A DNA stretch of 64,000 nt from positions 1,364,001-1,428,000 of the forward strand of contig NZ_LR746496.1 in the NCBI RefSeq assembly GCF_902729405.1. The letters run 5' to 3'. The DNA is from Acididesulfobacillus acetoxydans (GTDB taxonomy: Bacteria > Bacillota > Desulfitobacteriia > Desulfitobacteriales > Desulfitobacteriaceae). Both the position numbers and the translations under genes were made by a program. How positions within the stretch are numbered: position 1 is the stretch's first letter; the number at the start of each line of letters is the position of its first letter. The notes beneath the pieces are model-generated. The model was not told where the DNA came from. It did no database searches and worked only from the letters and a program-made list of their open reading frames with translations. Below are positions 24,104 to 44,708 of the stretch, piece after piece.

Positions 24104-24180
24104 CCGGAGATCGAGACTCCGGGATGAAGTCCATCCCTACTGAAGTAGGGCATACAGGACCCACACCTATTTGTAGGGGT
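24104..24180 (+). promoter_or_regulatory. Consecutive, partly exclusive stem-loops before corrinoid copy 3
   Basis: CCGGAG/CTCCGG (24104-24109 with 24117-24122), GGGATG/CATCCC (24121-24126 with 24132-24137) and CCCTAC/GTAGGG (24135-24140 with 24145-24150) follow one another, each sharing 2-3 bases with the next, so neighbours cannot fully coexist. A weaker CACCTA/TAGGGG hairpin follows. No sigma-54 promoter is visible before this block. The region may hold a terminator or attenuator between methyltransferase copy 3 and corrinoid copy 3. Confidence 0.4.
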
Positions 24181-24253
24181 TTGCAGATGCCAAAGTCTCA
24201 CGGTTGGATGTAAACACTTAAACTACGTATTCTTTGAGATAGGAGGTTGAGAG

Positions 24254-24889: not shown

Positions 24890-24916
24890 GAGACGAAGAC
24901 GGAAAGGAGGAGGACA

Positions 24917-26374
24917 ATGCCTGCCAAAAGTAATTATGTGGCTAACGCCACCCCCCTGTTTAGTATCCTGTCCCCGGCTCAATGTGAAGAAATCTTCCTA
25001 GCAGCCGAGGAGGTTCTCGAACGTACCGGCGTAACGGTCCATGATGAGGAGGCTCGCGATATTCTGAAAAAAGCAGGTTGTTGGCTTGACGGGATCCGGG
25101 TGCGCATTCCTTCGGCCGTGGTCAACCAGGCCTTGAATTCTGTGCCGAAAAGGGTAACCCTTTGCAATAGCCGCACCGGTTCCCGGGATGTGCTGTTGGA
25201 AGGAAACAACGCTTACTTTGGCACGGGGTCTGACACCCCTTTTACCATTGATCCGTATACGGGCCGGCGCCGGCGTTCGACCAAGCAGTCCGTGGGTTGG
25301 GCCTGCAAAGTAATTGATGCCTTGCCCAACTTGGACTTTGTCATGTCCCTGGGAATCGTGCAGGATGTTCCCCTGCTCATATCGGACCGCCACCAATTTG
25401 AGGCTCAGGTTCTCAACACAAGCAAACCGATTGTGACGACCGCCCATGACATCTATGGTTTCGCTGACATTATTGAGATGTGCGAGATCATTGCCGGAGG
25501 AGAGGAAGAGTTGCGGCGCAATCCTTTTATGACGCTTTATGCCGAGCCGATCTCTCCCCTGCAGCATGCCTGGGAGGCGGCGTCCAAGTTGGTGCTGGCC
25601 GCCCGGAAAGGGCTTCCGGTTGTCTATACGCCTTGTGTTATGGCGGGTGGGACGGTTCCGGCGACGATGGCTGGGGTGCTCACCAATGGCCTGGCCGAGT
25701 CCCTCAGCGGATTGGTGATTAACCAAGCGACCAGAGAAGGTTCCCCGTTTATTATGGGCGGCGTCTTTACCATTATGGATATGTCGAGTACAATTTTCAG
25801 TTATGGCTCTCCGGAGTTTAATCTATTGATGTCGGCATTGGCGGATATGGCTCATTACCTGAAGCTGCCGATGTTTGGCACAGCCGGGTGCAGCGATGCC
25901 TGTGTCGTCGACGAACAGGCAGGCATTGAAGCCGCCCTGTCGATCGCCATGACAGCCTTGTCCGGACCTAATCTAAATCACGATGTAGGCTATATTGAAT
26001 ACGGATCGACATCCTCCCTGGAGTATCTTACGATCAATAACGACGTGATCGGCATGGCCCGTCGTCTCGTGCGTGGCATCAAGGTCAATGACGAGACGTT
26101 GGCGCTGGATCTGATTGACAAGGTGGGTCCGGGGGGACATTTCTTAGCCGAGGATCACACGATGAAATACTTCAAGACAGAGACGTATTATCCGGAACTG
26201 ATTAACCGGCAGCGGTATGATGCCTGGAAGGAAAACGGGAGCAAGACCCTGTTCCAGCGTGCCAATGAAAAAGTCAAAGACATCATCGAGAATTATCAGC
26301 CCGAGCCGTTGCCCCAAGACGTTCAGAAAAGGATCCGAGCCATCGTCGAACGGGCGGAACAAAAAGTCCATTAA
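24917..26374 (+). CDS. MttB-family corrinoid methyltransferase 4 (non-pyrrolysine, class GTGSDTP)
   Basis: Trimethylamine-methyltransferase-superfamily protein, 485 residues, no internal amber codon. It has GTGSDTP near residue 100 and the LGIVQDVP segment that copy 1 shares (LGLVQDVP), so it is of the first class. GPGGHFLAEDHT is near the end. ATG with GGAAAGGAGGAGG. Its block contains the only MtgA-like enzyme of the window, so a complete methyl path (substrate to corrinoid copy 3 to tetrahydrofolate) could be encoded from 24254 to 29952. Confidence 0.88.
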   Translation: MPAKSNYVANATPLFSILSPAQCEEIFLAAEEVLERTGVTVHDEEARDILKKAGCWLDGIRVRIPSAVVNQALNSVPKRVTLCNSRTGSRDVLLEGNNAYFGTGSDTPFTIDPYTGRRRRSTKQSVGWACKVIDALPNLDFVMSLGIVQDVPLLISDRHQFEAQVLNTSKPIVTTAHDIYGFADIIEMCEIIAGGEEELRRNPFMTLYAEPISPLQHAWEAASKLVLAARKGLPVVYTPCVMAGGTVPATMAGVLTNGLAESLSGLVINQATREGSPFIMGGVFTIMDMSSTIFSYGSPEFNLLMSALADMAHYLKLPMFGTAGCSDACVVDEQAGIEAALSIAMTALSGPNLNHDVGYIEYGSTSSLEYLTINNDVIGMARRLVRGIKVNDETLALDLIDKVGPGGHFLAEDHTMKYFKTETYYPELINRQRYDAWKENGSKTLFQRANEKVKDIIENYQPEPLPQDVQKRIRAIVERAEQKVH

Positions 26375-26407
26375 GTTTAGGATGGGTGGGGAATGGAGTG
26401 ACTGACA

Positions 26408-28372: not shown

Positions 28373-28382
28373 AAGTGAAAAC

Positions 28383-29030
28383 ATGAAAGGGAAAGTCCTG
28401 GCGTGTCAGACTATGGCGGACGAAGTTCAAAAGGTCCTCCCGCCCGATCTAGATCTGGAACTGCTGCCATATGCCTTGCATCGTGTGCCGCAGCGGCTGC
28501 AGTCCGAACTTCAGAAACGCATTGATGCCGATACCGACCATGATACTCTGCTCTTTGGTTACGGCCTGTGTTCCTATGGTGTGGTCAATCTCTGCTCTGA
28601 ACGCCACACTCTGGTCATTCCGAGGGTGCATGACTGCATTAGTCTCCTGATGGGTGCACGCGAAATTTACGACCGCGAGTTCGCGAAACATCCGGCCACG
28701 ATATATTTGAGTAAAGGCTGGATCGATCAGGGGGCCGAACCTTTGGCCGAGTTTAAGAATTATGCTGAAACGTATGGCAACGAGGATGCGCAATGGATGA
28801 TTGATACGCAATACAAGCATTATCAGCGGGTCGTTTTGATCGATACCGGGGTCGGCTGCCGAGAGGAACTTGCGCTGTACACAAGAAGCGTAGCACGGTT
28901 TCTCAACGTTGCTTATGATGAGCATCCTGGTTCCGTGAGACTTTTGACCAAACTCTTCCGGGGGGACTGGGATCGGGAATTTGTGGTCATACCCCCCGGC
29001 AGGATGGTTATGCAACGCAGTTTTCTTTGA
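28383..29030 (+). CDS. DUF1638 domain protein
   Basis: About 215 residues, soluble. The DUF1638 features are an LFGYGLCSYGVVNL segment near residue 58, VHDCISLLMGA near 85, and the later VLIDTGVGC. Biochemical function is unknown; the family occurs in methylamine and MttB-type gene clusters of bacteria and archaea. It starts 10 bases after the ATPase gene, inside the same operon. The frame opens further upstream, but ATG 28383 avoids a long overlap and lies at a usable distance from GGAGGAG. Confidence 0.8.
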   Translation: MKGKVLACQTMADEVQKVLPPDLDLELLPYALHRVPQRLQSELQKRIDADTDHDTLLFGYGLCSYGVVNLCSERHTLVIPRVHDCISLLMGAREIYDREFAKHPATIYLSKGWIDQGAEPLAEFKNYAETYGNEDAQWMIDTQYKHYQRVVLIDTGVGCREELALYTRSVARFLNVAYDEHPGSVRLLTKLFRGDWDREFVVIPPGRMVMQRSFL

Positions 29031-29033
29031 CAT

Positions 29034-29060
29034 TCCTCCACCCCCGAAGAGGTGGGGTTC
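29034..29060 (+). other. Short hairpin in the gap between DUF1638 and MtgA genes
   Basis: CCACC (29038-29042) pairs with GGTGG (29051-29055), framed by ATTCCT before and GGTTCC after. This resembles the end hairpins of IS200/IS605 elements, but no transposase or second end is present. It may be a remnant or a processing hairpin. Confidence 0.25.
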
Positions 29061-29154
29061 CCGGCAGAGGATAAGGTCTTCAGCGGCTGCCAGGGGAACT
29101 AGATTAAATAATTTGTCTGAACGTCCCTTGTTCCCGTTGAGAGGAGGTTAGTAC

Positions 29155-29952
29155 ATGTTGATAATCGGCGAACTAATCAACACCAGTCGGAAAGCTATTA
29201 GGCCCGCCGTCGAGCGGAAGGATACGGCCTTTATCCAAGACTTGGCCCAAAGACAGGTGGAGGCAGGCGCACATTACGTCGATGTGAATTGCGGCACTTT
29301 GGTGCATGATGAGGTCCAGACGATGGAATGGCTCGTGGATACGGTTCAGGAAGCGGTGTCTCAGCCTCTTTGTATCGACACGCCTCGGGCGGAAGCGATG
29401 GAAGCCGGGCTGGCCGGGGTCAAAAACGGCCAACCGATGGTAAACTCTATCACCGCCGAGAAGGAGCGCTATGCAAGAATTCTGCCTCTGGTTCTAAAAT
29501 ACAAGGCGAAAGTTGTGGCTTTGTGCATGGATGACAAAGGTGTGCCGGCTTCAGCGGAAGAGCGTATCACCATTATTCGCCGTCTGGTGACGGATCTGAC
29601 GGCGGACGGCGTCCCGGAGGATGATATCTACCTGGATCCCCTGATTACGCCTATCAGCACCGGGGATCACTATGGTCAGGCAGTTCTGGAGACCGTCCGT
29701 TTTATCCGGAGGGAATATCCACGGGTTCACGCCGTCTGTGGCTTGAGCAACATTTCCTACGGGTTGCCCAACCGTAAGATTTTGAACCGGGCGTTCATGA
29801 TTCAGACCATGGCGGCAGGTATGGATGCCTACATTCTTGATCCATTGGACAAAGCGATGATGGGTTTCGTCTATGCCTCCCAGGCGCTTTTGGGCCAGGA
29901 TAGTTACTGTGGGCAGTATCTAAGTGCCCACAGAAGCGGACTTTTCGAGTAA
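29155..29952 (+). CDS. mtgA: Methylcorrinoid:tetrahydrofolate methyltransferase (MtgA-like)
   Basis: A 265-residue pterin-binding TIM barrel, cytoplasmic. It begins LIIGELINTSRKAI, then has HYVDVNCGT near 42, CIDTPRAEAMEAGL near 75 and YLDPLITPIST near 163, all typical of the MtgA and MetH/AcsE-type pterin barrels. MtgA of Desulfitobacterium hafniense moves the methyl group from the glycine-betaine corrinoid protein to tetrahydrofolate; the same role is expected here. It closes the block of corrinoid copy 3 and methyltransferase copy 4. Start ATG with GAGAGGAGG. Confidence 0.9.
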   Translation: MLIIGELINTSRKAIRPAVERKDTAFIQDLAQRQVEAGAHYVDVNCGTLVHDEVQTMEWLVDTVQEAVSQPLCIDTPRAEAMEAGLAGVKNGQPMVNSITAEKERYARILPLVLKYKAKVVALCMDDKGVPASAEERITIIRRLVTDLTADGVPEDDIYLDPLITPISTGDHYGQAVLETVRFIRREYPRVHAVCGLSNISYGLPNRKILNRAFMIQTMAAGMDAYILDPLDKAMMGFVYASQALLGQDSYCGQYLSAHRSGLFE

Positions 29953-30240: not shown

Positions 30241-30825
30241 GTGAAGAATCTGGATGATACACATGTTGCTAAGAGAAACCCGGAGACAGAAGATATCGAA
30301 GAGATGCGTGAACTTGTGATCGAGGCGATGTCCCAGACCATGTCTTTGTACGGGTTCAATGCCACGGTCGGGCGCCTTTGCGGGATCTTGTTTTTTGCCA
30401 AGGAGCCTATGAGTCTGGACGACATGAGTCAGGCCATGGGCATGAGTAAAACAAGTGTCTGCACAACCATCAAGACCCTGGTGGGTGCTAAGGCGGCAAA
30501 ACAGGTGTGGCTGCGCGGAACCCGCAAGGACATGTATGTGGCGGAGAAGAACTTTTTTCAGTATTTCAGCGATTTCTTTTGCAATAACTTACGAACGGAG
30601 GTTGCCCTTAATTTTGCCGTTCTCGATAAGGTATTGCCGTTGTATGAAAAAATCTTGGCCGGTGAAAGTCGTTCGCCAACGAGAGCAGAGGCTGAGGAGG
30701 ATTTCAGCAAATTATTAGAGGTTAAGCGATATTACACCTGGCTGGATTCTTTCGTCAAACAATATTTGGAGGACCTGAAAATACTTCAGCTTCCCAATCC
30801 TGCCGAGTCCCCGGACGAACCATGA
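30241..30825 (+). CDS. gbsR: GbsR/MarR-family choline-betaine repressor
   Basis: A 194-residue winged-helix regulator of the GbsR group. The DNA-binding part spans about 40-100: LCGILFFAKEPMSLDDMSQ, then MSKTSVCTTIKTL as recognition helix. The C-terminal half is helical, for dimerisation and ligand binding. In Bacillus, GbsR represses choline import and oxidation genes and is relieved by choline. Here it stands directly before choline-oxidation genes and behind a palindrome that it probably binds itself. GTG start, weak ribosome site. Confidence 0.88.
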   Translation: MKNLDDTHVAKRNPETEDIEEMRELVIEAMSQTMSLYGFNATVGRLCGILFFAKEPMSLDDMSQAMGMSKTSVCTTIKTLVGAKAAKQVWLRGTRKDMYVAEKNFFQYFSDFFCNNLRTEVALNFAVLDKVLPLYEKILAGESRSPTRAEAEEDFSKLLEVKRYYTWLDSFVKQYLEDLKILQLPNPAESPDEP

Positions 30826-31000
30826 CCACGCTCACAGATGAAGTGTAAACCGTGCTCGAACTAAAAACGAAATAAAATCTGCCGGGTGGATTCGGGATGA
30901 GATGGGTGAAGGATAGGATGAACATTTTGAGAGCATGGTGTCTTTTGTGATCCCAAGATTCACAGACTAGGTCAAATAATGTAAAGGGGTGCTGAAAAGA

Positions 31001-32179
31001 ATGCGTTTGGAAAGAGCTTTTAAAGTCAAAACCTTCGAAATGCCAACTGCTATCAAACATGGTTTGGGTGCACTCGGACAACTGGCAGATGAACTTGCGC
31101 TGCTTGGAGTCAAGAAACCGTTACTTGTCACAGACCAGGGAGTAGTTAAGGCAGGGTTACTGGGAAAGATGGTTGATGTTTTGGACAGCAACCATTCCCG
31201 ATACGCCGTTTTTGACCAGGTTAAATCGGATCCGCCCGTTGAGCTGGTGGGACAAGGAACAGAAATCTATCGCAGCAAGGGCTGTGACGGCTTGATTGCT
31301 ATGGGCGGAGGCAGCCCCATGGATACGGCCAAAGCCATTGGGGTGGAAGTGGCCCACGGAGGGAGCATCTTAGACTACGAAGCGGCGGACGGGAAACTGC
31401 CGTTGACCAAGCGCATTCCTCCTTTGATTGCCATACCGACGACGGCGGGCACGGGCAGCGAAGTGAGCCAGTGGGCGGTCATCACGGATCCGAAGCGGCA
31501 GTTTAAGTTTAACGTGGGTGGTCCGCTGATTGCGGCACACGTCGCTTTGATTGATCCCATGCTCCATGTCTCACTGCCGGCAAACGTGACGGCCGCGACT
31601 GGAATGGACGCCTTGTGTCACGCCATTGAATGCTATACTTCGCACTATGCCCAGTCCCCTACGGATGCCGTGGCTTTGCTGGCCGTTGATTACGCGGCCC
31701 GGTACCTGCGGCGGGCCTACGCCTACGGCAACGACTTGGAGGCGCGTTATGGCATGGCGATGTCGGCCATGCTGGCAGGCATTTCTTACGGCAGTGAGAG
31801 CGCGGGTGCGGTTCACGCCATGGCCCAAACGCTGGGTGGTATCGTTTCTATTCCTCATGGGGTCGCGGTGGGCGCTTTGTTGGCTCCGGTTATGGAATAC
31901 AATTGGATGGGTTGGCCGGATAAATATAAGAGAATTGCTCAGATGATGGGGGTCGATACGAACGGAATGGATGAGAGGGGGGCAGCTTTGTCCGCCGTGA
32001 AGGCTGTGGCAGACCTCGCTCAAGACGTCGGGATTCCTTCTTTGAGGGACTATGGGATTACGGAGCAAGACATCCCCCGCTTAGCTAAGGAAGCAGCGCA
32101 TGACCCTCAAACCGTAGAAAATACGCGGGACATAGATGAACGGGGATACGAGGCCATTTACCGCAAAGCGTTGACCTAA
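31001..32179 (+). CDS. gbsB: Iron-containing alcohol dehydrogenase, probable choline dehydrogenase (GbsB-like)
   Basis: A type III (iron-dependent) NAD(P)-linked alcohol dehydrogenase, 393 residues. It has the GGGSPMDTAK nucleotide motif near 98 and the metal-ligand His motifs MDALCHAIE near 195 and GAVHAMAQTLGGIVSIPHG near 263-281. With gbsR before and a betaine aldehyde dehydrogenase downstream, choline to betaine aldehyde is the likely reaction, as for GbsB of Bacillus. Start ATG 31001 is preceded by AAAGGGG; GTG 30989 is an alternative. Confidence 0.85.
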   Translation: MRLERAFKVKTFEMPTAIKHGLGALGQLADELALLGVKKPLLVTDQGVVKAGLLGKMVDVLDSNHSRYAVFDQVKSDPPVELVGQGTEIYRSKGCDGLIAMGGGSPMDTAKAIGVEVAHGGSILDYEAADGKLPLTKRIPPLIAIPTTAGTGSEVSQWAVITDPKRQFKFNVGGPLIAAHVALIDPMLHVSLPANVTAATGMDALCHAIECYTSHYAQSPTDAVALLAVDYAARYLRRAYAYGNDLEARYGMAMSAMLAGISYGSESAGAVHAMAQTLGGIVSIPHGVAVGALLAPVMEYNWMGWPDKYKRIAQMMGVDTNGMDERGAALSAVKAVADLAQDVGIPSLRDYGITEQDIPRLAKEAAHDPQTVENTRDIDERGYEAIYRKALT

Positions 32180-32224
32180 CCGGCGAGCGCTGTGGTCGAC
32201 GGAATACACGAAGGAGGGGCCCGA

Positions 32225-32983
32225 ATGAATAAGGAAGAGGGGATCAAGACCGACATCATGGAGGAGGCTGAGCGCGTTTGGAGGGCCGCCGACAACTTCG
32301 GTATTCTGTTGCGGTTGATTGGCGGGTTGGCTGTGCGGGTGCACTCTGAGTCATCGTTGTTGCCGGCTCTGGCAAGAAACTATAAAGACCTTGATTTTGC
32401 CACGCAAGCGGGGAACGTTCCCCGCCTAACCAATTTGCTAAAAGAACTGGGCTATGTGCCGGATAAAGCCTTCAACGCCCTGAATATGGGAAGGAGGCAG
32501 CTGTTTTACGAAACAGAAAGCAACAGGCAGCTGGATCTTTTTGTGGACACTTTTGAGATGTGCCATACGATACCCTTGCATGACCGATTGAAGGTGGAAA
32601 AGATGACGATCCCCCTGGCTGAACTCTTTTTATCGAAAATCCAAATTATCCAGCTTAATGAAAAGGACGTGAAGGACCTGTTTGCCTTGCTGCTGGATCA
32701 TAAGATTGCCGCCGGAGATAAGGAGGTGATTAACAGGGATATTATCGCAGAGAGGACGGCCAAGGACTGGGGGTTTTTTCACACGATCGAGTTGAATTTG
32801 GCCAAACTGCGCCTTTTGATCAATAACTATGAGCTTGGGGAAAAGGATGGGGAGAAAATACTGCTGGCTATTGAGGCAATTTTGGAGGTCATGAACCGCA
32901 GCAAAAAGGGTCTTAATTGGCAGATGCGAAGTAAGATTGGCGAAAAACTAATGTGGTATAAGCTCCCGGAAGAGGTGGGTTAA
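32225..32983 (+). CDS. Nucleotidyltransferase-fold protein of unknown role
   Basis: A 252-residue soluble protein. The LIGGLAVRVH segment near 30 and YKDLDFAT near 55 form the GG-[x]n-DxD arrangement of the nucleotidyltransferase fold (AbiEii-like or related), and RQLDLFVDTFEMCH near 98 may supply the third acidic residue. No toxin-antitoxin partner is beside it. It sits between the choline dehydrogenase and the permease, apparently co-transcribed, so a link with choline uptake or regulation is possible but unproven. ATG 32225 has GGAGGGG upstream. Confidence 0.6.
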   Translation: MNKEEGIKTDIMEEAERVWRAADNFGILLRLIGGLAVRVHSESSLLPALARNYKDLDFATQAGNVPRLTNLLKELGYVPDKAFNALNMGRRQLFYETESNRQLDLFVDTFEMCHTIPLHDRLKVEKMTIPLAELFLSKIQIIQLNEKDVKDLFALLLDHKIAAGDKEVINRDIIAERTAKDWGFFHTIELNLAKLRLLINNYELGEKDGEKILLAIEAILEVMNRSKKGLNWQMRSKIGEKLMWYKLPEEVG

Positions 32984-33023: not shown

Positions 33024-34655
33024 ATGGCAAACGACGTAAACGTTAATTTGTTTGCCCGGCAGGCCACGGGCTTGGTCAGGCATTGGTCGGTTTTCGACGC
33101 CTTTATTTACTCGTTTTTCTCCATCAATCTAATTACCCTGGGATTTTACATCTTTTCTTCTGCTCCCAATGTTCCGAATGGACAGTTGATCCCTGCCCTG
33201 GTTGTCAGCGCGCTGTTTATTCTGTTTGAAGTCGGCGTTTACGCCATGATGATTTCAGTGATGCCCAGGGCCGGAGGAGATTACGTCTGGCAGAGTCGCA
33301 TTTTGGGCGGAGGTTTAGGCTTTGTCTTAGCCATGACCGGATGGGTATTGATCCTGTGGATGTGGATACCGGTGTATGGCTCTTTGCTTTCCTACGACGT
33401 CCTGACCCCGATTTTGGCGATACTCAGTTCAATCGGAAACAGCGCGGGTTTGGCCGCTGCCGCGGTGTGGTTCACGAGTCAGACCGGGCTTTTCCTATCC
33501 TCGTTGCTTGTCATTCTGTTCGCCTTTGTTGTGATTGGTATTGGCATGAAATGGTATGCCAGAATCCAAAAGATATCGTTTTTTGTGGGGGTTCTGGGGC
33601 TTTTTACAGTATTTGTCATGCTGGCCGCCAGCACCCCAGCGCATTTTGCCGCGGAATTTAACCGATTCAGTCAGACCGTATTTGGAGTCAAAGACAGCAA
33701 TACTTATCAGAGTATCATAGCGCTGGCAGCCAAGGGGGGATATAAAGCTCTGCCTTTTGGACATATGCCGCTTATGGCCAGCCTTCCGCTAATTCCTTTG
33801 CTGCTTTTCTTTAATCTCTGGCCAAACTGGGGCTCCACTTTATATGGTGAGGTTCGTGGAGCGAGCGAATTCCGTAAGAATTTCTGGGGGATGGCGGCCG
33901 CCGTCATCATTACAACCGTTTTGGCGATTGTTCTCGTCGCCCTTTTAGCGAAAGGCATCGGTTGGGATTTTTACAACACGGCGAATTTTGCCTTTTGGAG
34001 TGGTAAATCCCCCTTGCCGGTTTTTCCGTTCCTCAGCTTGTATGTTTCGTTTTTGACCCAAAATCCCTTGCTTCAGCTTTGGTTGGTTCTGTCCATGAGC
34101 GCTTGGTTTTTTGGTTGGGCCGGTACCGTTTTCCTGTCTTCAACCCGGGTTCTCTTTGCGGCTGCTTTCGACCGGGTGCTGCCCGACTGGATCGCGGAAG
34201 TGTCACCAAAGCATGGCACTCCCTTCCGGGCACTTCTGGTCATGGTGGTTCCCTCAGTCGTGCTGAGCGCTTTGTATGCCTATTCGCCGACCTTTGCCAA
34301 GATGACTCTTGATACAACGGTGGTAATTGCCATCACCTATCTGGGGACGACAATTGCCGCCATGAGGCTGCCTGTCAAGGATCCCGAACTCTTCCGCGCC
34401 TCTCCTATTGCCAAGTACAAAATTGGCAATATTCCGGTGATAACAATCATTTCCGTCGTCTTCGGCTTGTTCTTATTGTGGAACATTTATATGTGGCTGG
34501 CTAAAGCGGTGTATGGTGTGAATGATCCGTTGTCCGCAGTCTTCATGTTGCTCCTTTACGTAATTGCCCTCGTCTATTTTCTCATATCGAAGAATTACCG
34601 AAAAAAACAGGGTATTGATCTTTCTTTGGTGCAAAAAACCATTCCTATTGAATGA
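33024..34655 (+). CDS. APC-family amino acid/amine permease
   Basis: A 543-residue integral membrane transporter with about 12 helices, of the amino acid-polyamine-organocation superfamily. The first helix region carries 'SFFSINLITLGFYIF' and later parts read MPRAGGDYVWQSRILGGGLGF, a usual APC helix 2-3 signature. The position between choline dehydrogenase and betaine aldehyde dehydrogenase suggests choline or a related amine as substrate, but APC members usually carry amino acids. Ribosome site AGGGAGGG before ATG. Confidence 0.85.
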   Translation: MANDVNVNLFARQATGLVRHWSVFDAFIYSFFSINLITLGFYIFSSAPNVPNGQLIPALVVSALFILFEVGVYAMMISVMPRAGGDYVWQSRILGGGLGFVLAMTGWVLILWMWIPVYGSLLSYDVLTPILAILSSIGNSAGLAAAAVWFTSQTGLFLSSLLVILFAFVVIGIGMKWYARIQKISFFVGVLGLFTVFVMLAASTPAHFAAEFNRFSQTVFGVKDSNTYQSIIALAAKGGYKALPFGHMPLMASLPLIPLLLFFNLWPNWGSTLYGEVRGASEFRKNFWGMAAAVIITTVLAIVLVALLAKGIGWDFYNTANFAFWSGKSPLPVFPFLSLYVSFLTQNPLLQLWLVLSMSAWFFGWAGTVFLSSTRVLFAAAFDRVLPDWIAEVSPKHGTPFRALLVMVVPSVVLSALYAYSPTFAKMTLDTTVVIAITYLGTTIAAMRLPVKDPELFRASPIAKYKIGNIPVITIISVVFGLFLLWNIYMWLAKAVYGVNDPLSAVFMLLLYVIALVYFLISKNYRKKQGIDLSLVQKTIPIE

Positions 34656-34807: not shown

Positions 34808-36274
34808 TTGGAAGTTAAGAAAATGTGGATCGGCGGCGAATGGATGCTGTCCGAATCCGGGACAACCCGAGATCTAATCAACCCGGCGAATGAAGAGGTC
34901 TACGCCCGGGTTGCGGAGGGCGACGTTGCAGACACCCGGAAAGCGATTGCTGCGGCCAGAGAAGCTTTTGACCATGGACCCTGGCCGAACATGCAGGTTA
35001 CAGAACGGGCGGCAAAGTTGGCGAAAATTGCCGATCTGATTGAAAAGGACGGAGAGGATCTGGCTGTTCTGGAGACCACCGGCACCGGAAAAGGTCTGCG
35101 CGAAAGCCGCTTTGACGTAGCGGATGTTGTCTCAGCCTTCCGTTACTTTGCCGGACTTGCCGATAAACCCGGCGGGCAAACCTTCGATGTCCCCGCACCG
35201 GCCATGAGCATGGTCTTGCGTGAGCCGCTGGGAGTCTGCGGACAGATTGTTCCCTGGAACTATCCCATGCTGCAAATCTCCTGGAAACTTGCGCCTGCCT
35301 TGGCAGCGGGAAACACATGTGTTGTTAAGCCGAGTGAACTGACCCCTTTGAGCACCATCAGAATGATGGAGCTGATTGAGGAGGTGGGATTTCCTCCCGG
35401 CGTCATAAATCTGGTTTTGGGTCCGGGACCGACGGTCGGTAATGAGCTGGCAGCCAGTCAAGAGGTTGACTTTATTTCCTTCACCGGAGGACCGATTGCA
35501 GGTCGCAGCATTATGCAGGCGGCTGCTTCCAACTTTAAGAGGGTCGCTCTGGAATTGGGAGGTAAATCACCCAATATTATCTTCGCTGATGTCGACCTGG
35601 ATCTTGCCGTTGACTATGCACTGTTCGGTATTTTTGTTCATGCCGGACAGGTTTGCTCAGCCGGTTCCCGTCTGCTGGTGGAGGAATCCATTCACGATGA
35701 ATTGGTAAGTCATCTTGTTGAGCGGGCTCAGAAAATTAGGTTGGGCAACGGAATGGATCCCGAGAGTGAAATGGGACCGTTGATTTCGGCGCCTCATCGG
35801 GAAAGAGTTGAAAATTATATCCGCATTGGGATCGAGGAAGGGGCAAAATTGGTCTGTGGCGGAAAACGCCCGGCGGGTTTGACCAGGGGCTATTTTCTGG
35901 AGCCGACCGTTTTTACCGATACTCATCCACAGATGAGAATTGTCCAGGAAGAGATCTTTGGCCCTGTGTTGGTGACCCAGAAATTCAGTTCGGAAGAAGA
36001 AGCGGTAAAGTTGGCTAATGCTACAAAGTATGGCCTGGCGGGGGCTGTTTGGACGAATGATGTGACCCGGGCTCATAGAGTTGCGCGTCAATTGCGCGAC
36101 GGTATCGTCTGGATCAACAATTATCATCCGTATTATGTGGAAGGACCCTGGGGTGGCTACAAACAAAGCGGTTTTGGGCGGGAGCTGGGAACTTTCGGCT
36201 TGGATGAATACACTCAAATTAAACAATTAGTCATCAATCTAGATGTTGCCCCCGTACGTTGGTTTAAGAATTGA
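34808..36274 (+). CDS. gbsA: Betaine aldehyde dehydrogenase-like aldehyde dehydrogenase
   Basis: NAD(P)-dependent aldehyde dehydrogenase, 488 residues. PWNYPM near 150, catalytic-base motif ELGGKSPN near 250 and the catalytic Cys in GQVCSAGS near 284 are present. The most likely reaction is betaine aldehyde to glycine betaine. A TTG at 34808 is the start I use (AGGAG at 34791-34795, 12 bases before); the remnant copy at 41292 begins with an ATG one codon before the equivalent TTG. ATG 34823 is an alternative. The 120 bases before the gene are strikingly purine-rich on this strand (GAGAAGAGAA and similar). Confidence 0.88.
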   Translation: MEVKKMWIGGEWMLSESGTTRDLINPANEEVYARVAEGDVADTRKAIAAAREAFDHGPWPNMQVTERAAKLAKIADLIEKDGEDLAVLETTGTGKGLRESRFDVADVVSAFRYFAGLADKPGGQTFDVPAPAMSMVLREPLGVCGQIVPWNYPMLQISWKLAPALAAGNTCVVKPSELTPLSTIRMMELIEEVGFPPGVINLVLGPGPTVGNELAASQEVDFISFTGGPIAGRSIMQAAASNFKRVALELGGKSPNIIFADVDLDLAVDYALFGIFVHAGQVCSAGSRLLVEESIHDELVSHLVERAQKIRLGNGMDPESEMGPLISAPHRERVENYIRIGIEEGAKLVCGGKRPAGLTRGYFLEPTVFTDTHPQMRIVQEEIFGPVLVTQKFSSEEEAVKLANATKYGLAGAVWTNDVTRAHRVARQLRDGIVWINNYHPYYVEGPWGGYKQSGFGRELGTFGLDEYTQIKQLVINLDVAPVRWFKN

Positions 36275-36347: not shown

Positions 36348-37286
36348 ATGACAAGATTATTCTTTGCGACAGATGTTCATGGTTCCGAAAAATGCTGGAA
36401 AAAGTTCATTTCAGCCGGGAAATTTTATAAAGCGGAAATCCTTATTTTAGGAGGGGATATGACCGGTAAGGCTATTGTGCCTGTGCTGGAAACTAAGGAG
36501 GGATTCAAGACGACTTTTCTGGAACAGGATTACACGATGCACAGCAGTGAGGAAACGGCACAAATGGAGGAGTTGATCCGCAACCGGGGCTACTACCCGA
36601 TTCGGATGGACTCAGACAGAATAGCGGAACTGGAAGCCAATCCTGAAAACGTCAATAAGTTATTTGTCGACGTTGCCAAGTCCACTGTGGAAAAATGGAT
36701 GGACTATGCTGAGGACAAACTAAATAATTCCGGGATCAAGTGCTACGTCTGCCCGGGTAATGACGACATGTTTGAAATAGATGAGGTCATCCGTAAAAGC
36801 GGAGCCGTGGAATTGACAGAGGGCAAAGTGGTCAGGCTAAGCCAGTATCATGAGATGATCAGCACAGGCTGGTCCAATCCCACCCCTTGGAACACTCATC
36901 GGGAATGCTCTGAAGATGAGCTGAAGCGGAAACTTGATCGGATGGCGGAGCAGGTGGAAAACCTAAGTCAATGTGTTTTTAATTTTCATTGCCCGCCTTA
37001 TAATTCCGGGCTGGATGAAGCTCCGGAACTAGATAAAGATCTGCGTCCGAGGTACGCAGGGCGGTCTTTGATCCCGGTCGGAAGCCTGGCCGTAAAAGAG
37101 ACGATCGAGACTTACAGGCCGCTGTTGGGATTATTCGGACATATCCACGAAGGAAAAGGGGTTAAGAAATTAAAAAAGTCAACCTGTATTAACCCTGGTA
37201 GTTCCTATGAACAGGGAGTTCTCATGGGGGCCTTAGTAGAACTGGACAAGAAGGGGGTCCGGAGTTACCTCTTAACTTCCGGTTGA
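36348..37286 (+). CDS. Metallophosphoesterase
   Basis: A 312-residue calcineurin-type phosphoesterase. Metal ligands are visible as ATDVHG (D-x-H) at 7-12, GGDMTG near 37, PGNDD near 137, FHCPPYN near 210 and GHIHEG near 264. The insert after GGDMTG is long (about 95 residues), with two helices that could form a cap. Substrate unknown; it may hydrolyse a phosphoester or cyclic nucleotide. It lies between betaine aldehyde dehydrogenase and MttB-like protein 5. I take ATG 36348 because GGAGGG is at 36337-36342; the frame opens earlier at 36291. Confidence 0.8.
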   Translation: MTRLFFATDVHGSEKCWKKFISAGKFYKAEILILGGDMTGKAIVPVLETKEGFKTTFLEQDYTMHSSEETAQMEELIRNRGYYPIRMDSDRIAELEANPENVNKLFVDVAKSTVEKWMDYAEDKLNNSGIKCYVCPGNDDMFEIDEVIRKSGAVELTEGKVVRLSQYHEMISTGWSNPTPWNTHRECSEDELKRKLDRMAEQVENLSQCVFNFHCPPYNSGLDEAPELDKDLRPRYAGRSLIPVGSLAVKETIETYRPLLGLFGHIHEGKGVKKLKKSTCINPGSSYEQGVLMGALVELDKKGVRSYLLTSG

Positions 37287-37314
37287 TTTGGAGTGAACGG
37301 AGGGAGGGTTGGGT

Positions 37315-38727
37315 TTGGCAGCGCCGAGTCTGAGTGTTCTAAACGCGAAAGAAATTGAACAGATAAAAGACGCCAGCATGGATATCTTGCAACACACCGG
37401 CGTCAAGATGGATTATGCTTCGGCCAGGGATGTTCTGCGGGCGCGAGGAGCCAAGGTTGAGGGAGAGATTGTCTTTTTCCCACCCCGGCTGGTGCAGGAA
37501 GCCGTTATGTCAGCGCCGCGCGGGTTCAGGCTGTATGCCCGTAATCCGGCCAAGAACGTGAGCATCGGCGACGGGAATCCGGTATTTGTGCCGGGTTATG
37601 GCGCACCTTTTATCACTTCTGTAGATGGGGCTAAGCGCAAGGCTGTGTATGAGGATTTTGTCCAATTGGTCCGTTTGGCGGGGGCCAGTTCCAATATGGA
37701 TATTACCGGCGGCGTTTTGGTCGAGCCCAATGATATTCCCGAGAAGCACAGGCATCAACAGATGCTCTATGCCTGCCTGGCTAATTCAGACAAACCGTTT
37801 ATGGGCAGTGCGACCGGGGCTGAGCACGCCCGGGATTCTTTGGCTATGGCGGCGACTCTGTTTGAAGATGATGGCGACAGGCCCTCCCAGCCTGTGATGA
37901 TCACCTTGATCAATTCTCTCTCGCCCTTGATGTATGACGCCAGGATGGCAGGGGCTTTGATGGAATATGCCGCGGCTGGTCAGCCCCTGATCATTGCATC
38001 CCTGGGCATGGCCGGGTCGACCATGCCGGCGACTCTGGCATCTGTCTTGTCCGTGCAAAATGCGGAGGTTTTGGCCGGGATCACCTTGGCTCAGGTTGTG
38101 CGCGAGGGGACGCCGGTTGTCTATGGGTCAGCTTCGTCAATCACGGAGATGCGTTACGGTTCGTTGAGCATTGGAGCGCCGGAGGGTGCCTGGATTATTG
38201 CGGCGGCGGCACAAATCGCTCACTCCTACGGGTTGCCTTGCCGGGCCGGGGGGTCTCTGACCGACAGCAAATTGCCCGACGCCCAAGCGGCGTCGGAGAG
38301 CATGATGAATATGCTGACTGCCGGTTTGGCCGGAGTGGATGTGATCCTTCACGCGGCAGGCATCCTGGAATCCTATGTATCCATGTCCTTGGAGAAGTTT
38401 GTCCTTGATGATGAGGCTTGCAGCGCCGTTAAACGAATCTTACGAGGGGGCGATGTAAATAAGGATACTTTGGCAGTAGGGTTAATCCACGATATCGGGC
38501 CGGGTGGAGAGTTTCTCTCAGCGGAACATACGTATGGGCATTTTCGTTCGGAGTTTTGGCAATCACCTTTGGCAGAGCGGGGCAGTTATGATCAATGGAG
38601 GCTGGAAGGAACCCGCACGGCATTGGTTAGGGCCCAAATACGTTTGCAACAAATATTGGAAAGTTACCAGGCACCGCCCTTGCCTAAGAAGGTGGAAAAG
38701 CGCCTGCGCGAGAGTGCCGCTAGGTAA
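37315..38727 (+). CDS. MttB-family corrinoid methyltransferase 5 (non-pyrrolysine, divergent)
   Basis: Trimethylamine-methyltransferase-superfamily protein of about 470 residues without amber codon, clearly divergent from copies 1-4. The residue-100 region reads VPGYGAP instead of GTGSDTP or GPGPT. The family C-terminus IGPGGEFLSAEHT is kept. It has no corrinoid gene beside it and would have to use one of the three upstream. Its neighbours (betaine aldehyde dehydrogenase, aldehyde oxidoreductase) make glycine betaine the best guess as substrate. Start TTG 37315 suits the GGAGGGAGG site; TTG 37309 is the alternative. Confidence 0.85.
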   Translation: MAAPSLSVLNAKEIEQIKDASMDILQHTGVKMDYASARDVLRARGAKVEGEIVFFPPRLVQEAVMSAPRGFRLYARNPAKNVSIGDGNPVFVPGYGAPFITSVDGAKRKAVYEDFVQLVRLAGASSNMDITGGVLVEPNDIPEKHRHQQMLYACLANSDKPFMGSATGAEHARDSLAMAATLFEDDGDRPSQPVMITLINSLSPLMYDARMAGALMEYAAAGQPLIIASLGMAGSTMPATLASVLSVQNAEVLAGITLAQVVREGTPVVYGSASSITEMRYGSLSIGAPEGAWIIAAAAQIAHSYGLPCRAGGSLTDSKLPDAQAASESMMNMLTAGLAGVDVILHAAGILESYVSMSLEKFVLDDEACSAVKRILRGGDVNKDTLAVGLIHDIGPGGEFLSAEHTYGHFRSEFWQSPLAERGSYDQWRLEGTRTALVRAQIRLQQILESYQAPPLPKKVEKRLRESAAR

Positions 38728-38747
38728 AGTTACGAGGAGGTAACTGC

Positions 38748-40547
38748 ATGAAGGGCTACAGCGGGAAAATTATAAGGGTGGATTTGGGCACACGCGAAGT
38801 GCGGATCGAAGAACCGCTCCGCCTGTGGTACGAAAAATACTTAGGCGGGAAGGGATTGGGCTATCGCTATCTTTTACAGGACGTTGACGCGAAGGTCGAT
38901 CCTCTAGGACCGGACAACGAGATCATATTCATGAACGGTCCGTTTGCCGGCACGATTGTTCCCACGTCTTCACGCCTGGCGGTTTTGACGAAATCCCCTG
39001 CGACCGGAACGATCCTGGTAAGCCTGGTCGGCGGGGGGGTTGCCGCGGAGCTGAAGTATGCCGGATATGATGGAATCATCATTTGTGGTCGGGCCGCGAG
39101 CCCTGTCTATTTGTACGTCTCCAATCACAAGGTTGCCATTGAAAAGGCCGATGCTCTGTGGGGAAAGGGAATCCACGAAACGGAAGGCTGGCTGCGAGAG
39201 AAATATAAACCAGAAGTCAAGTCTTTGACGATTGGTCCGGGAGGAGAAAACGAAGTTCTTTATGCCTGTATTACAGTCGATTCTTATCATCAGGCCGGTC
39301 GCGGAGGGGCAGGGGCGGTGATGGGCAGCAAAAACCTGAAAGCCATCGTTGTGCAGGGTTCGACAGGGGTGCAGATCGGTAGTGATATGAAAAGTTTTTT
39401 GGACTATATCCTGGATATACGCAAGCGTGACGTTTTAACGGAAGCACACCTTTGGACCGATCTGACCGGAACTCCCGGCACGGTGGATGCCTCACAAGAA
39501 ATTGGCGTTTTACCGACCCGGAATTATCAGGACGGCCAGTACGAAAAAGTGGCCGGAATTAACAGTGATGCAGTCAAAATGAAGTTGAAGAGAACAAGAG
39601 CCTGTGCCACCTGTCCTTTGGGATGCGGCCGGTTTACACAAGCCAAGGATGGGAGTTTGGTCGAAGGGCCGGAGTACGAGACCCTTGGTTTAGCCGGGTC
39701 GAACTGTGATGTCGACGATATGGACACATTGATCCGCTTCAACAAGTTGTGCGATGATTTAGGGCTGGACACCATCTCCACCGGTGGAGTACTGGCTTTT
39801 GCCATGGAAGCGACAGAAAAAGGGATTTATGATTTTGGGATCCGTTTTGGCGAAGGCGAAAAAATGCTGGACTATGTAAAAAGAATCGCCGGGCGCCAGG
39901 ATGTGGGAAACCTTTTGGCCGCTGGGGTCAAGCGGGCGGCAGCCGCCGTGGGTGGGCAAGACATTGCCATGGAAGTGAAAGGACTGGAATTCCCGGCGTT
40001 TGATCCCCGGGGGAGTTATGGCATGGCTTTGGCTTATGCCACTTCGGACCGGGGAGCATGCCATCAGCGGGCTTTTGCCATTGAAGAGGACGCTTTTGGC
40101 TCGATGGATCCTTTTACTTTTGTCAATAAAGCGGAGGTCGTAAAGCGGCAGCAGGATTACAACAGTGCTAAAGATTCATTGATCATCTGCGATTTCTGGC
40201 GTCCGTCTCCCGAAACCTTGGCGGAAATTTACACCAAAGTCACCGGTTGGCCCATGACGGCAAAAGAGTTGAAAATCTGTGGCGAGCGAATATGGAACAT
40301 GGGGCAAATGTTTAACCAGGGTGCGGGATTCAGTAGGAAAGACGACTATCTGCCTCCAAGGGTTTTACATGATCCACTTTTAAATGGGCCGGCTGCTCAT
40401 AAGACATTTAAGGTTGATGAATTCACCGCAAGTTTGTCTGAATTATACGGGATGCGCGGCTGGGATGAAAGTGGAAAAGTACAAACAGAAAAGCTCAAGC
40501 AACTGGGGATGGATGATGGGATAGCAGGGGGGGAATCTGAACTATGA
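38748..40547 (+). CDS. aor: Tungsten-dependent aldehyde:ferredoxin oxidoreductase
   Basis: A 599-residue AOR-family enzyme that oxidises aldehydes to acids with a tungstopterin and one [4Fe-4S] cluster, passing electrons to ferredoxin. The cluster ligands appear as CATCPLGC (C-x2-C-x3-C) near 285 and the late Cys in IICDFW near 483. The N-terminal start YSGKIIRVDLGTREV is typical. It sits between MttB-like protein 5 and its own small ferredoxin, whose start codon overlaps its stop (ATGA). Betaine aldehyde is a possible substrate given the operon (inference). ATG with GAGGAGG. Confidence 0.92.
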   Translation: MKGYSGKIIRVDLGTREVRIEEPLRLWYEKYLGGKGLGYRYLLQDVDAKVDPLGPDNEIIFMNGPFAGTIVPTSSRLAVLTKSPATGTILVSLVGGGVAAELKYAGYDGIIICGRAASPVYLYVSNHKVAIEKADALWGKGIHETEGWLREKYKPEVKSLTIGPGGENEVLYACITVDSYHQAGRGGAGAVMGSKNLKAIVVQGSTGVQIGSDMKSFLDYILDIRKRDVLTEAHLWTDLTGTPGTVDASQEIGVLPTRNYQDGQYEKVAGINSDAVKMKLKRTRACATCPLGCGRFTQAKDGSLVEGPEYETLGLAGSNCDVDDMDTLIRFNKLCDDLGLDTISTGGVLAFAMEATEKGIYDFGIRFGEGEKMLDYVKRIAGRQDVGNLLAAGVKRAAAAVGGQDIAMEVKGLEFPAFDPRGSYGMALAYATSDRGACHQRAFAIEEDAFGSMDPFTFVNKAEVVKRQQDYNSAKDSLIICDFWRPSPETLAEIYTKVTGWPMTAKELKICGERIWNMGQMFNQGAGFSRKDDYLPPRVLHDPLLNGPAAHKTFKVDEFTASLSELYGMRGWDESGKVQTEKLKQLGMDDGIAGGESEL

Positions 40548-40942
40548 AACTTATCTTGGATTCCTCGCGCTGCACCGGTTGCAAGAGTTGTGAGTTGGCA
40601 TGTGCCGGTTTTCATGCCAATGCATTCGATCCGGGGAGATCCAGGATTCGAATTGTCAATGATCCTTACCAGGGAGAGAGTCTAATCAATGTTTGCCGAA
40701 ATTGTCCGGATCATCCCTGTGTAAGCACTTGTCAGTTTGACGCCTGTACTTATAATGAAAGGACTGGCTTTGTAGAGGTTCACGATGAAGTCTGCACACG
40801 TTGCAATGCCTGTGTTGCTGCTTGTTCTTATGATGCCGTTTTTCTTGATCCGATGACAGAACTGCCACTGATTTGTGACGGTTGTTCAGGAATACCGCGA
40901 TGTGTGCCATTTTGCTATAAGGAGGCGATCCGGCTGGAGTAG
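40544..40942 (+). CDS. Four-cluster ferredoxin partner of the aldehyde oxidoreductase
   Basis: A 132-residue iron-sulfur protein. Four Cys groups are visible (CTGCKSC...C, CRNCPDHPC...C, CTRCNAC...C, CDGCSGIPRC...C), the arrangement of AorB/HycB-type electron-transfer subunits with up to four [4Fe-4S] clusters. It would take electrons from the aldehyde oxidoreductase. The start overlaps the oxidoreductase stop by ATGA, giving translational coupling and 1:1 synthesis. Confidence 0.92.
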   Translation: MKLILDSSRCTGCKSCELACAGFHANAFDPGRSRIRIVNDPYQGESLINVCRNCPDHPCVSTCQFDACTYNERTGFVEVHDEVCTRCNACVAACSYDAVFLDPMTELPLICDGCSGIPRCVPFCYKEAIRLE

Positions 40943-41291: not shown

Positions 41292-41693
41292 ATGTTGGAT
41301 GTTAAAAGGATGTGGATCAACGGGGAATCGATACCGGCGTAATCGGTAAAAATTCGTGATCTTTCAATCCTGCGAAAGAAGAGGTCTAGGTCCACGTCAC
41401 AGAAAGGGTGTCGTAGATACCCGGAAGGCGATTGCCGTGGCCAGAAAGGCTTTTGACCATGGCCTTTGGCCGGAGACGCATGTTACAGAACGAGCGGCAA
41501 TCGCCCGCAACTGCGGGGCGGCATCGTGTGGATCAATAATTATCACGCCTACTATGTGGAAGGACCTTGGGGTGGCTACAAACAAAGCGGTTTCGGGCGG
41601 GAATTGGGAACCTTTGGCTTGGACGAATACACCCAAATCAAACAGCTGGCCATTAATTTAGAGGTCGCTCCTGTGCGCTGGTTTAAGAATTGA
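41292..41693 (+). pseudogene. Remnant of a second betaine aldehyde dehydrogenase gene (large internal deletion)
   Basis: The first about 200 bases match the N-terminal part of the 34808 gene (MLDVKRMWINGES; DTRKAIAVARKAFDHG; VTERAA), but with in-frame stops and frame changes. At about 41505 the match jumps to the last about 190 bases of that gene (GIVWINNY through RWFKN). About 1.06 kb of the coding sequence, including the catalytic Cys, is missing. It follows the GbsR-type operator and leader terminator, so an older operon of gbsA plus betaine importer has lost its first gene. Confidence 0.88.
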
Positions 41694-41897: not shown

Positions 41898-43046
41898 GTG
41901 AATGACTTTTCCTTGGATATTCAGCGGGGAGAATTTGTCGTGCTGATTGGTCCATCGGGATGTGGCAAGTCAACAACGCTGCGCATGATCAACCGTCTTG
42001 TGGAGCCTTCGTCCGGTACAATTGAGATTGACGGACAGGACTATGAAAAATATCACCCGGTTGAACTCAGACGCCGTCTGGGATATGTGATTCAGCAGGT
42101 GGGGCTCATCCCCCACTTGACCATCGGGGAGAATATCTCCTTCGTTCTCAGACTAAAAGGGGTGAAGGAAAACGGGCGTCGAGCGCGGGCGAGGGAATTA
42201 CTTGAGCTGGTTGAAATGAAGCCAGACTTGTTTATGGACCGTTATCCCTCTGAATTGAGCGGTGGCCAGCAACAGCGGATTGGGGTTTTGCGCGCTCTGG
42301 CGCATGATCCAGACATTATTTTGATGGACGAACCGTTCGGTTCCCTGGATCCTATCATGCGCGAACAGTTGCAGGATGAATTAAAACGTCTGCAGCTCAA
42401 TGTGCAGAAGACGATCATTTTTGTGACGCACGATATGGATGAGGCCATCCGAATGGCTGACCGAATAGTGATCATGAAGGAGGGCCGGATCGTTCAAGTG
42501 GCGAGTCCCCATGTGATTTTACAGGCTCCCTCTGACGATTTTGTCGCTAACTTTTTTGTTCGGCAGCGCTTGGCATGGCAAACGATCAAGATACCGGTGA
42601 GAGAGATCATGAGTAGGTCTATGGCGACAATTCCGCATCAAAGTAGCCTGGCACATTGTCTTGAGGAGATGCTCAGGCAGGGTAGCGACCAAATGGTCAT
42701 CCTCAACGAACATGACAAGTTTGAAGGATTTATTTGCCTGGAAGATCTGAAGGGAGTATCGGAACAAGGCCTGGAGATGCCGGTAAACGTTTTTCCCAAA
42801 GTGTACAAGGAAGCGATTCCACCTGAGTTCACTTTGCTGAACGGTATACAGGCGATGATTATCCATAAAATTAACGCGATTCCGGTCACAGAAAGCGACG
42901 GTACTGTCGTAGGCAGTGTCAGCTTGAGTCGTGTAATGGAGCTTCTGAGGGGTGCGGCTGGTACAAGTGTGGTGGCCCCTGCAACCGGCGGCGGGGAAAA
43001 CGGCGACCCTGCCCTAGAGAAGGAGGTGAAAGGACCCGAATGCTGA
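41898..43046 (+). CDS. opuCA: OpuC-type glycine betaine/choline ABC transporter, ATPase with CBS domains
   Basis: ATPase of a quaternary-amine importer, ABC domain followed by two CBS motifs (about 235-360). Walker A GPSGCGKST, signature LSGGQQQR and Walker B LMDEPFGSLDP are intact. Standard starts give only GTG 41898, which cuts the first strand of the fold. In the same frame the upstream bases 41847-41897 encode a perfect family N-terminus (LSLRNVTKIFCNGTVAV), but no ATG, GTG or TTG precedes it; ATT 41847 is the only candidate. Either a rare start is used or the start codon is mutated. It follows the deleted gbsA copy. Confidence 0.85.
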   Translation: MNDFSLDIQRGEFVVLIGPSGCGKSTTLRMINRLVEPSSGTIEIDGQDYEKYHPVELRRRLGYVIQQVGLIPHLTIGENISFVLRLKGVKENGRRARARELLELVEMKPDLFMDRYPSELSGGQQQRIGVLRALAHDPDIILMDEPFGSLDPIMREQLQDELKRLQLNVQKTIIFVTHDMDEAIRMADRIVIMKEGRIVQVASPHVILQAPSDDFVANFFVRQRLAWQTIKIPVREIMSRSMATIPHQSSLAHCLEEMLRQGSDQMVILNEHDKFEGFICLEDLKGVSEQGLEMPVNVFPKVYKEAIPPEFTLLNGIQAMIIHKINAIPVTESDGTVVGSVSLSRVMELLRGAAGTSVVAPATGGGENGDPALEKEVKGPEC

Positions 43047-43696
43047 TCACGGAAACAATCCGGTTCTTTGTACTTCATCATGATCAAGTTCTAAAGGCTA
43101 CAGTACAACACCTGTACTTGGTAGCTATCCCGATGGTTTTGTGCATCTTAATTGCTGTGCCCCTGACTATCTTGGCCACCAGGATACAGAAGCTGTACCC
43201 TTGGCTCATTGGGTTTAGCAATGCTATGCAGACTATTCCAAGCCTTGCTCTACTTGCGTTGTTAATCGCAATTGGCAGCGGCATTGGACTTGTTCCTACC
43301 GTGGTGGCTCTTTTCCTTTACGCTTTGATGCCTATCATCAGAAACACTTTTGTCGGCATCAACGGCGTGTCACCAGAAATCAAAGACGCGGCAATGGGTA
43401 TGGGTGTAACAAATTGGCAACTACTCTGGATGATCGAATTGCCGTTGGCCCTAAAGGTGATTATCGCCGGCATTCGTTCTGCCTTAGTGGGAACAATTGG
43501 ATTTGCGACCCTGGGAGCATTAATAGGAGCCGGTGGACTGGGGTCGCTAATTTTGCGCGGTTTGAGCATGGCCAGCAACGACATTGTGTTAGCAGGTACC
43601 TTACCTGCCATGCTAATGGCGTTCTTGGCCGAATTCCTGATGAGTCGGCTGGAAATTTTACTGACGCCACGAGGTTTACGAACGCGGAAAGGTTGA
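43040..43696 (+). CDS. opuCB: OpuC-type ABC transporter permease
   Basis: A 218-residue membrane permease, about six helices, of the OpuCB/ProW group. The coupling segment GVSPEIKDAAMGMGVTN with PLALKVIIAGI (residues about 113-145) is typical. Its ATG overlaps the end of the ATPase gene by 7 bases. OpuC systems usually have two permeases flanking the binding protein; only one is present here, so it probably works as a homodimer. Confidence 0.9.
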   Translation: MLITETIRFFVLHHDQVLKATVQHLYLVAIPMVLCILIAVPLTILATRIQKLYPWLIGFSNAMQTIPSLALLALLIAIGSGIGLVPTVVALFLYALMPIIRNTFVGINGVSPEIKDAAMGMGVTNWQLLWMIELPLALKVIIAGIRSALVGTIGFATLGALIGAGGLGSLILRGLSMASNDIVLAGTLPAMLMAFLAEFLMSRLEILLTPRGLRTRKG

Positions 43697-43757
43697 GGCG
43701 GTTCCTGTTTTTTCGCATTACTTGGCAGTAGTGTCATTTGAAAGGGGTTGGCTAATC

Positions 43758-44708
43758 GTGTCGATCGGTCGTTTCCTTAAGCTAACGGGAGTTGGGTTAA
43801 TTGCAGCGCTAACGCTGCTGGGGTGTGGTACATCGACCAGCAATCAGTCCGCTGCTAATGGCTCAACGGGGCCTGAACAATACCCAATCAAGGAAATTAA
43901 TATTGCATCCCAAGCTCAGAGTGAGGCCATCATCGTCGACAATATGTTAAAAGAGATTATTGAAAGCAAGACGCCAATTAAGGTCAAGTTGCAAGAAACC
44001 AGTGGCGGGTCGGCACTCACCCATTCACTTATGGAAAAGAATAATATTCAAGTGTACTTTGGATATGATGGCACAGAGCTCGACAAAGTGTTTCATCTAA
44101 AGTATACCGCGGGGGAATTTGTGGGGCACCCCGATGCCGTTAGCAAGTATGTGAAGGATAATGAATTAAAAAGGTTCGGCATCTGGGTCTCGCCTTCTCT
44201 GGGCTTCCAGGATACGTATGCGATAGCGGTCAAAGAGGATGTGGCCACGAAAGACCACCTGAAAACCTTTTCGGATTGCGCTCCCTATGCAAAGAACTGG
44301 ATTTTTGCTACAGATCCTGATGTCATAAGTGATGTGATGCCCGGATTTGAGAAGGCCTATCCCAATCTCAAGTTCAAAAGGGTGATCTCTATGGATTACA
44401 ACCTAATGTACCAAGCTCTCGCCGATAACTCAGTTCAGGCCATTATGGCATTTTCTACGGACGGGCGCCTAACGAAGCTCAAGGAGGTGCCCTTAACCGA
44501 TAATAAGAATTATTTTCCTCCGTACAACGGTATTGTTCTGATCAAGAATGACGTTGTCCAAAAAGATCACCTTGATGCGGTGCTGGCGAAATTATGGGGT
44601 TCTATCTCAACTTCTGAAATGACTCATATGAACGAACTGGTGGATGTGGAGAAGGCGGATCCGGCAAAAGTGGCGCATGACTTCCTTACCCGCAAGGGAA
44701 TCATCTAA
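43758..44708 (+). CDS. opuCC: OpuC-type ABC transporter, substrate-binding lipoprotein
   Basis: Extracellular lipoprotein (about 316 residues) with signal helix and lipobox LLGC near residue 22. The mature domain begins EINIASQAQSEAIIVDNML and continues with LQETSGGSALTHSLM and VYFGYDGTELDKVF, the layout of osmoprotectant-binding OpuCC/OsmF proteins. GTG 43758 has GAAAGGGG upstream; the frame opens at 43722. It is the third gene of the importer. Confidence 0.9.
   Translation: MSIGRFLKLTGVGLIAALTLLGCGTSTSNQSAANGSTGPEQYPIKEINIASQAQSEAIIVDNMLKEIIESKTPIKVKLQETSGGSALTHSLMEKNNIQVYFGYDGTELDKVFHLKYTAGEFVGHPDAVSKYVKDNELKRFGIWVSPSLGFQDTYAIAVKEDVATKDHLKTFSDCAPYAKNWIFATDPDVISDVMPGFEKAYPNLKFKRVISMDYNLMYQALADNSVQAIMAFSTDGRLTKLKEVPLTDNKNYFPPYNGIVLIKNDVVQKDHLDAVLAKLWGSISTSEMTHMNELVDVEKADPAKVAHDFLTRKGII

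Follow-up and report, generated by a model that had tools for sequence, protein, structure and literature searches.

The window analysed here, a stretch of 64,000 nucleotides (positions 1364001-1428000 of the 4.52 Mb single-contig genome of Acididesulfobacillus acetoxydans), contains a set of genes for choline oxidation and glycine betaine demethylation, together with an aldehyde:ferredoxin oxidoreductase (AOR) and its ferredoxin (Table 1). From GbsB to the ferredoxin, the genes form a packed run on the + strand with intergenic gaps of 12 to 152 bp, in which AOR lies 6.6 kb from GbsB and its reading frame overlaps by 4 bp that of the adjoining ferredoxin gene. This run is preceded by a CudC/GbsR-like regulator and followed by the betaine-type ABC transporter. 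Twelve other GbsB loci were read, and in nine of them a homologue of the regulator is found close to GbsB. Scans for promoters and terminators gave signals not above chance. The AOR with its own four-cluster ferredoxin that the sequence-only reading had placed after MttB-like protein 5 is real (38748-40942), although that reading left the metallophosphoesterase in the same span unmentioned. We know of no role in choline use for this metallophosphoesterase or for the ORF at 32192; both recur, jointly with the permease, in two GbsB-AOR loci from other families (L102:11082-14555 and L104:10396-13697). Except for the position of BADH, the order from GbsB to ferredoxin is conserved at 87-97% protein identity in Peptococcaceae bacterium CEB3 (G001), the sole other genome of the genus in the comparison, and an AOR placed in the choline operon as in the window was found in two genomes only. 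AOR and ferredoxin are clearly under purifying selection (dN/dS against CEB3 of 0.13 and 0.18, respectively), with values above those of GbsB, permease and BADH (0.04-0.05).

Table 1. Features of the choline and glycine betaine locus, in window coordinates.
Feature	Position	Strand	Basis or remark
Glycine betaine demethylation cluster	21732-29952	+	gene content like the DCMF cluster (PMC9768040)
GbsR/CudC-like choline regulator	30241-30825	+	NF047500, 152 bits (cut-off 218)
GbsB-type iron choline dehydrogenase	30989-32179	+	NF053866, 680 bits (cut-off 550)
ORF with weak nucleotidyltransferase match	32192-32983	+	recurs in choline loci L102, L104
APC-type permease	33024-34655	+	PF13520; relatives 56% identical in choline loci L102, L104
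BADH, NAD-type betaine aldehyde dehydrogenase	34808-36274	+	TIGR01804, 643 bits, slightly below the cut-off of 668.6
Segment with the metallophosphoesterase, MttB-family, AOR and ferredoxin ORFs	36348-40942	+	
Calcineurin-like metallophosphoesterase	36345/36348-37286	+	58-59% relatives in L102, L104
MtgB-like glycine betaine:corrinoid methyltransferase, non-pyrrolysine	37309-38727	+	PF06253, 491 bits
Aldehyde:ferredoxin oxidoreductase (AOR)	38748-40547	+	PF02730, 255 bits; PF01314, 403 bits
Ferredoxin subunit, four [4Fe-4S] motifs	40544-40942	+	motif reading, structure matches
Decayed BADH remnant, internal deletion	41292-41693	+	site of intact BADH in CEB3
Betaine/choline-type ABC transporter (ATPase with CBS, permease, OpuAC binding protein)	41898-44708	+	PF04069; TIGR01186, 369 bits

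The NAD-type BADH mentioned in the sequence-only reading is also present, being 59-60% identical to the ALDH that adjoins GbsB in two other genomes (G385 and G217). Its history differs between the two genomes of the genus, both of which carry an intact copy: in CEB3 it sits downstream of the ferredoxin gene, at the site where the window holds a remnant with an early stop and a large internal deletion, and in the window it is upstream of the phosphoesterase. The dS between these intact copies is 0.96, against 0.23-0.74 for neighbouring genes, which makes simple orthology improbable. AOR and ALDH also share a locus elsewhere in this genome (L045, G000:C1:4407000-4426900), where another AOR is accompanied by a BADH-like ALDH, 61% identical to the window BADH, and by a pair of class-III aminotransferases.

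AOR passes the gathering scores of both AFOR domains (PF02730 and PF01314) and matches the structures 9mqx, 1aor and 8c0z. As in Pyrococcus furiosus AOR (1aor; 9mqx), the catalytic and cluster residues are kept: it has equivalents of T243, C288/C291/C295/C494, E311, Y312, E313 and H448, that is, including the [4Fe-4S] cysteines and the second-shell Glu313 and His448 (P. furiosus numbering; roles of the residues taken from a review, PMC12096430). In contrast to 1aor, 9mqx and 8c0z, Tyr427 is replaced by Phe (F418), Tyr452 also by Phe, and the equivalents of Asn93 and Ala183 in the Mg site are Leu and Gln. The second-shell Tyr427 is commonly conserved, with natural exceptions known among AORs (PMC12096430); since the other features are retained and published members vary too, its loss is taken as a departure within the AOR family. 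The ferredoxin contains 17 Cys in which four cluster motifs are recognized (CTGCKSCELAC, CRNCPDHPCVSTC, CTRCNACVAAC and CDGCSGIPRCVPFC), resembling the four-cluster small subunit (polyferredoxin) of Aromatoleum aromaticum AorAB (8c0z), although no AorC-like FAD subunit was seen beside the window AOR. Its closest solved structure is the small subunit of WOR5/ASOR from P. furiosus (6x1o_B), followed by AorA (8c0z_C), whereas the catalytic subunit is nearer to AOR than to WOR5 (446 vs 217 bits), and sulfonate chemistry is not implied. When WOR5 acts on taurine, the aldehyde that is chemically expected is aminoacetaldehyde. For this reason, little weight was given to a tungsten-enzyme review in which the aldehyde intermediate of this reaction is called betaine aldehyde. 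A MoaA homologue is encoded in the genome. A single-sequence structure prediction reached a mean pLDDT of 33 and was kept out of the argument.

The methyltransferase preceding AOR (MttB-like protein 5) had been labelled divergent, a description that has to be withdrawn, because it is the top scorer of the window for the Pfam MTTB family, its closest solved structures are 9yce (a glycine betaine methyltransferase) and 2qne, with 480 bits to 9yce/2qne, and it is about 49% identical to the Desulfitobacterium-type MtgB protein. It is, judging from these matches, MtgB-like, with an identity of 49% that leaves space for a related substrate, and its uninterrupted ORF does not need a pyrrolysine codon. 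The upstream cluster encodes corrinoid proteins, MttB3, MttB4, a hydantoinase-like ATPase, a DUF1638 protein and an MtgA-like pterin methyltransferase, similar to the kinds of genes, including MtgA and MtgB, of the glycine-betaine-induced cluster of DCMF (PMC9768040). The MttB-family, corrinoid, HydA-like, MtgA and MtgB proteins are shared with 'Ca. Formimonas warabiya' DCMF and, through MtgB, with Desulfitobacterium hafniense, but the window unites choline oxidation genes and AOR/ferredoxin in one locus, whereas the locus tags of choline dehydrogenase and BADH are distant in DCMF. Relatives of MttB-like protein 5 (63-65% identity, same bacterial family) are located in or near demethylation genes or beside BCCT-like transporters, with no AOR near them in the stretches read, and AOR was rejected as the usual partner of MtgB. 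No canonical corrinoid activator is found within the window: the hydantoinase-like ATPase (26408-28372) has no Fe-S motif, unlike RACE activators, and RACE-like activators are located elsewhere in the genome, unlinked.

In a survey of 398 genomes of the phylum, true GbsB (scores over the NCBIfam cut-off) was found in 13. Two of these have GbsB adjoining BADH (L093 and L094), and the surrounding sequence that was read contains no AOR; one is the window genome, with both BADH and AOR; and the remaining ten have an AOR at 0-5 kb from GbsB, in each case with a ferredoxin gene. A BADH-like ALDH is absent from these ten genomes, in which the best ALDH reaches 32% identity, as compared with 59-60% in the two BADH carriers. 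Their AORs form one branch of the tree, and a model of them (A1) gives 1008-1076 bits to these ten, 805 bits to the AOR of genome G226 and at most 655 bits to the others listed; the high scores of the branch are not independent, because eight of the ten sequences were in the model, but the near-absence of others is. Fisher's test (10/11 vs 1/387) gives 5e-18, a value that carries no correction for kinship and comes from a table set up after the data were seen. The scan of genome contigs yielded three loci only, and class-level searches around other genomes returned no further case. An AOR also lies within 1.5 kb of other high-scoring Fe-ADHs in 6 of 17 control cases, where the AOR is closest to generic enzymes of the 1aor type. 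Adjacency of Fe-ADH and AOR is thus too common to serve as proof on its own, and the case is built on two other features, the lack of a BADH and the distinctness of the AOR branch. This comparative genomics lends good support to a route composed of GbsB and AOR/ferredoxin, with AOR in place of BADH, in organisms that are presumably anaerobes, to judge by their gene content and the possession of AORs. The GbsAB system of the Bacillus subtilis type likewise comprises GbsB, a GbsR/CudC-like regulator, BADH and a betaine/choline transporter, but the window adds AOR/ferredoxin to this set and the ten other genomes have AOR/ferredoxin in BADH's stead.

The window AOR scores 561 bits with model A1, and its membership of the GbsB-linked branch, or orthology to it, was rejected by the tree and by an AU test (p = 1.3e-8). 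Its relatives are, instead, a 68% identical AOR in a locus with creatininase, MFS and flavin reductase genes, where there are no choline genes, and a group of 48% identical AORs beside a putrescine aminotransferase. On these phylogenetic grounds, the choline-operon AOR of this genus is best described as a separate recruitment from a different AOR lineage. Ferredoxin-AOR pairs at L042, L043 and L044 are accompanied by genes of the putrescine aminotransferase and/or N-carbamoylputrescine amidase type, and an AOR route for 4-aminobutanal is possible there. The position of Tyr427 is occupied by Phe in the window and in CEB3, and by Trp (ten) or Phe (one) in the choline branch; it is Tyr in 31 of 33 other AORs compared (the exceptions being one His and one Lys), and another 12 AORs likewise have Tyr. 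The two sister groups of the window AOR retain Tyr427, and within this group it is lost only in the choline-associated members. The change shared with the choline branch is convergent, amounting to two independent events only, and the AOR of G226 has Trp without GbsB. Close to the metal site, a hydroxyl-free aromatic residue could be favourable for an aldehyde that carries a trimethylammonium group. The G226 gene with the Trp427 signature (L138:726-2741) shares its locus with genes for an ATC hydrolase and a protein resembling serine dehydratase.

In the pathway that we propose, GbsB would convert choline to betaine aldehyde, which AOR would oxidize to glycine betaine with transfer of electrons to ferredoxin, in parallel to the NAD+-dependent conversion by BADH; glycine betaine would then give methyl-tetrahydrofolate through MtgB, a corrinoid protein and MtgA, and the electrons from AOR would enter the general ferredoxin pool. 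Gene content and order, the intact catalytic residues and purifying selection are read from the sequence itself, and the AOR/ferredoxin pairs in the ten GbsB loci that lack BADH come from comparison; what we infer is the substrate of this AOR, the direction in which it works, its metal and the fate of its electrons. With moderate confidence, we favour AOR and the polyferredoxin as performing the second oxidation of the anaerobic choline pathway alongside BADH. Betaine aldehyde is, from gene context and the shared change at Tyr427, the likeliest, although unproven, substrate of the window AOR. The oxidation of betaine aldehyde by AOR, which the sequence-only reading had advanced, gains support from the ten GbsB loci with ferredoxin-AOR in genomes lacking a BADH-like gene, but the window AOR lies outside that branch, in another lineage, and transfer of the substrate to it rests on gene context and one convergent active-site change. 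The putrescine aminotransferase adjoining the 48% relatives is another amino-aldehyde context and speaks in its favour. Against this reading, AORs are frequently broad in substrate range, and AOR is dispensable for the aldehyde step because BADH is present too. The 68% relative in a locus without choline genes, the MttB relatives without a neighbouring AOR and the restriction of this arrangement to two genomes also count against it. The two electron routes that had been suggested are both encoded.

A different role for AOR and ferredoxin, unlikely in our opinion but the strongest of the alternatives, is that of a broad-range scavenger that clears excess betaine aldehyde or other reactive aldehydes while BADH carries the main flux, the place in the operon reflecting co-expression. 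The intact BADH of both genomes agrees with this, as do the detoxification and wide substrate range that are credited to many AORs (PMC12096430), yet the ten GbsB loci with AOR but without BADH argue for a role in the main path, and the Tyr427 change is common to the window AOR and the GbsB-linked ones. It is still less probable that AOR acts on some other amino- or guanidino-aldehyde, the AOR-ferredoxin cassette coming from a polyamine or creatinine-type locus as the contexts of its relatives could indicate (creatininase at 68% identity; putrescine aminotransferase and N-carbamoylputrescine amidase at 48%): polyamine or creatinine genes were not found near the window AOR, both genomes have retained this AOR in their choline operon, and within its group Tyr427 is missing only from the choline-associated members. 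It is very improbable that AOR and ferredoxin are dedicated to supplying electrons with which the neighbouring corrinoid proteins are reductively activated, since, even though low-potential ferredoxin is the right type of donor and AOR/ferredoxin adjoins the MtgB-like gene, AOR/ferredoxin pairs occur in GbsB loci (L096-L103) without methyltransferases nearby, other MtgB loci have no AOR, and neither the window ATPase nor the unlinked RACE-like proteins provide a connection. Reduced ferredoxin could serve corrinoid activation, as the sequence-only reading supposed, but the locus offers no link between them.

In anoxic environments, methylamines and acetate are formed from choline and glycine betaine. 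A broader form of the second oxidation by AOR, which we put forward tentatively, is that a dedicated tungsten betaine aldehyde:ferredoxin oxidoreductase replaces BADH in anaerobic Bacillota and that a second AOR lineage was recruited in this genus, losing the Tyr427 hydroxyl convergently and delivering low-potential electrons to betaine demethylation. No report of an AOR in choline loci or choline oxidation was found among the open-access papers searched. If true, choline oxidation through AOR would yield reduced ferredoxin and not NADH, altering the energy balance and making choline a source of strongly reducing electrons; the pathway would be tungsten-dependent, one AOR branch would gain a physiological substrate, and the completion of betaine synthesis by GbsB genomes without BADH would be explained. 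A further AOR (L046, G000:C1:3606000-3625900) is encoded directly 3' of a probable activase and a PFL-like glycyl radical enzyme of 1035 aa.
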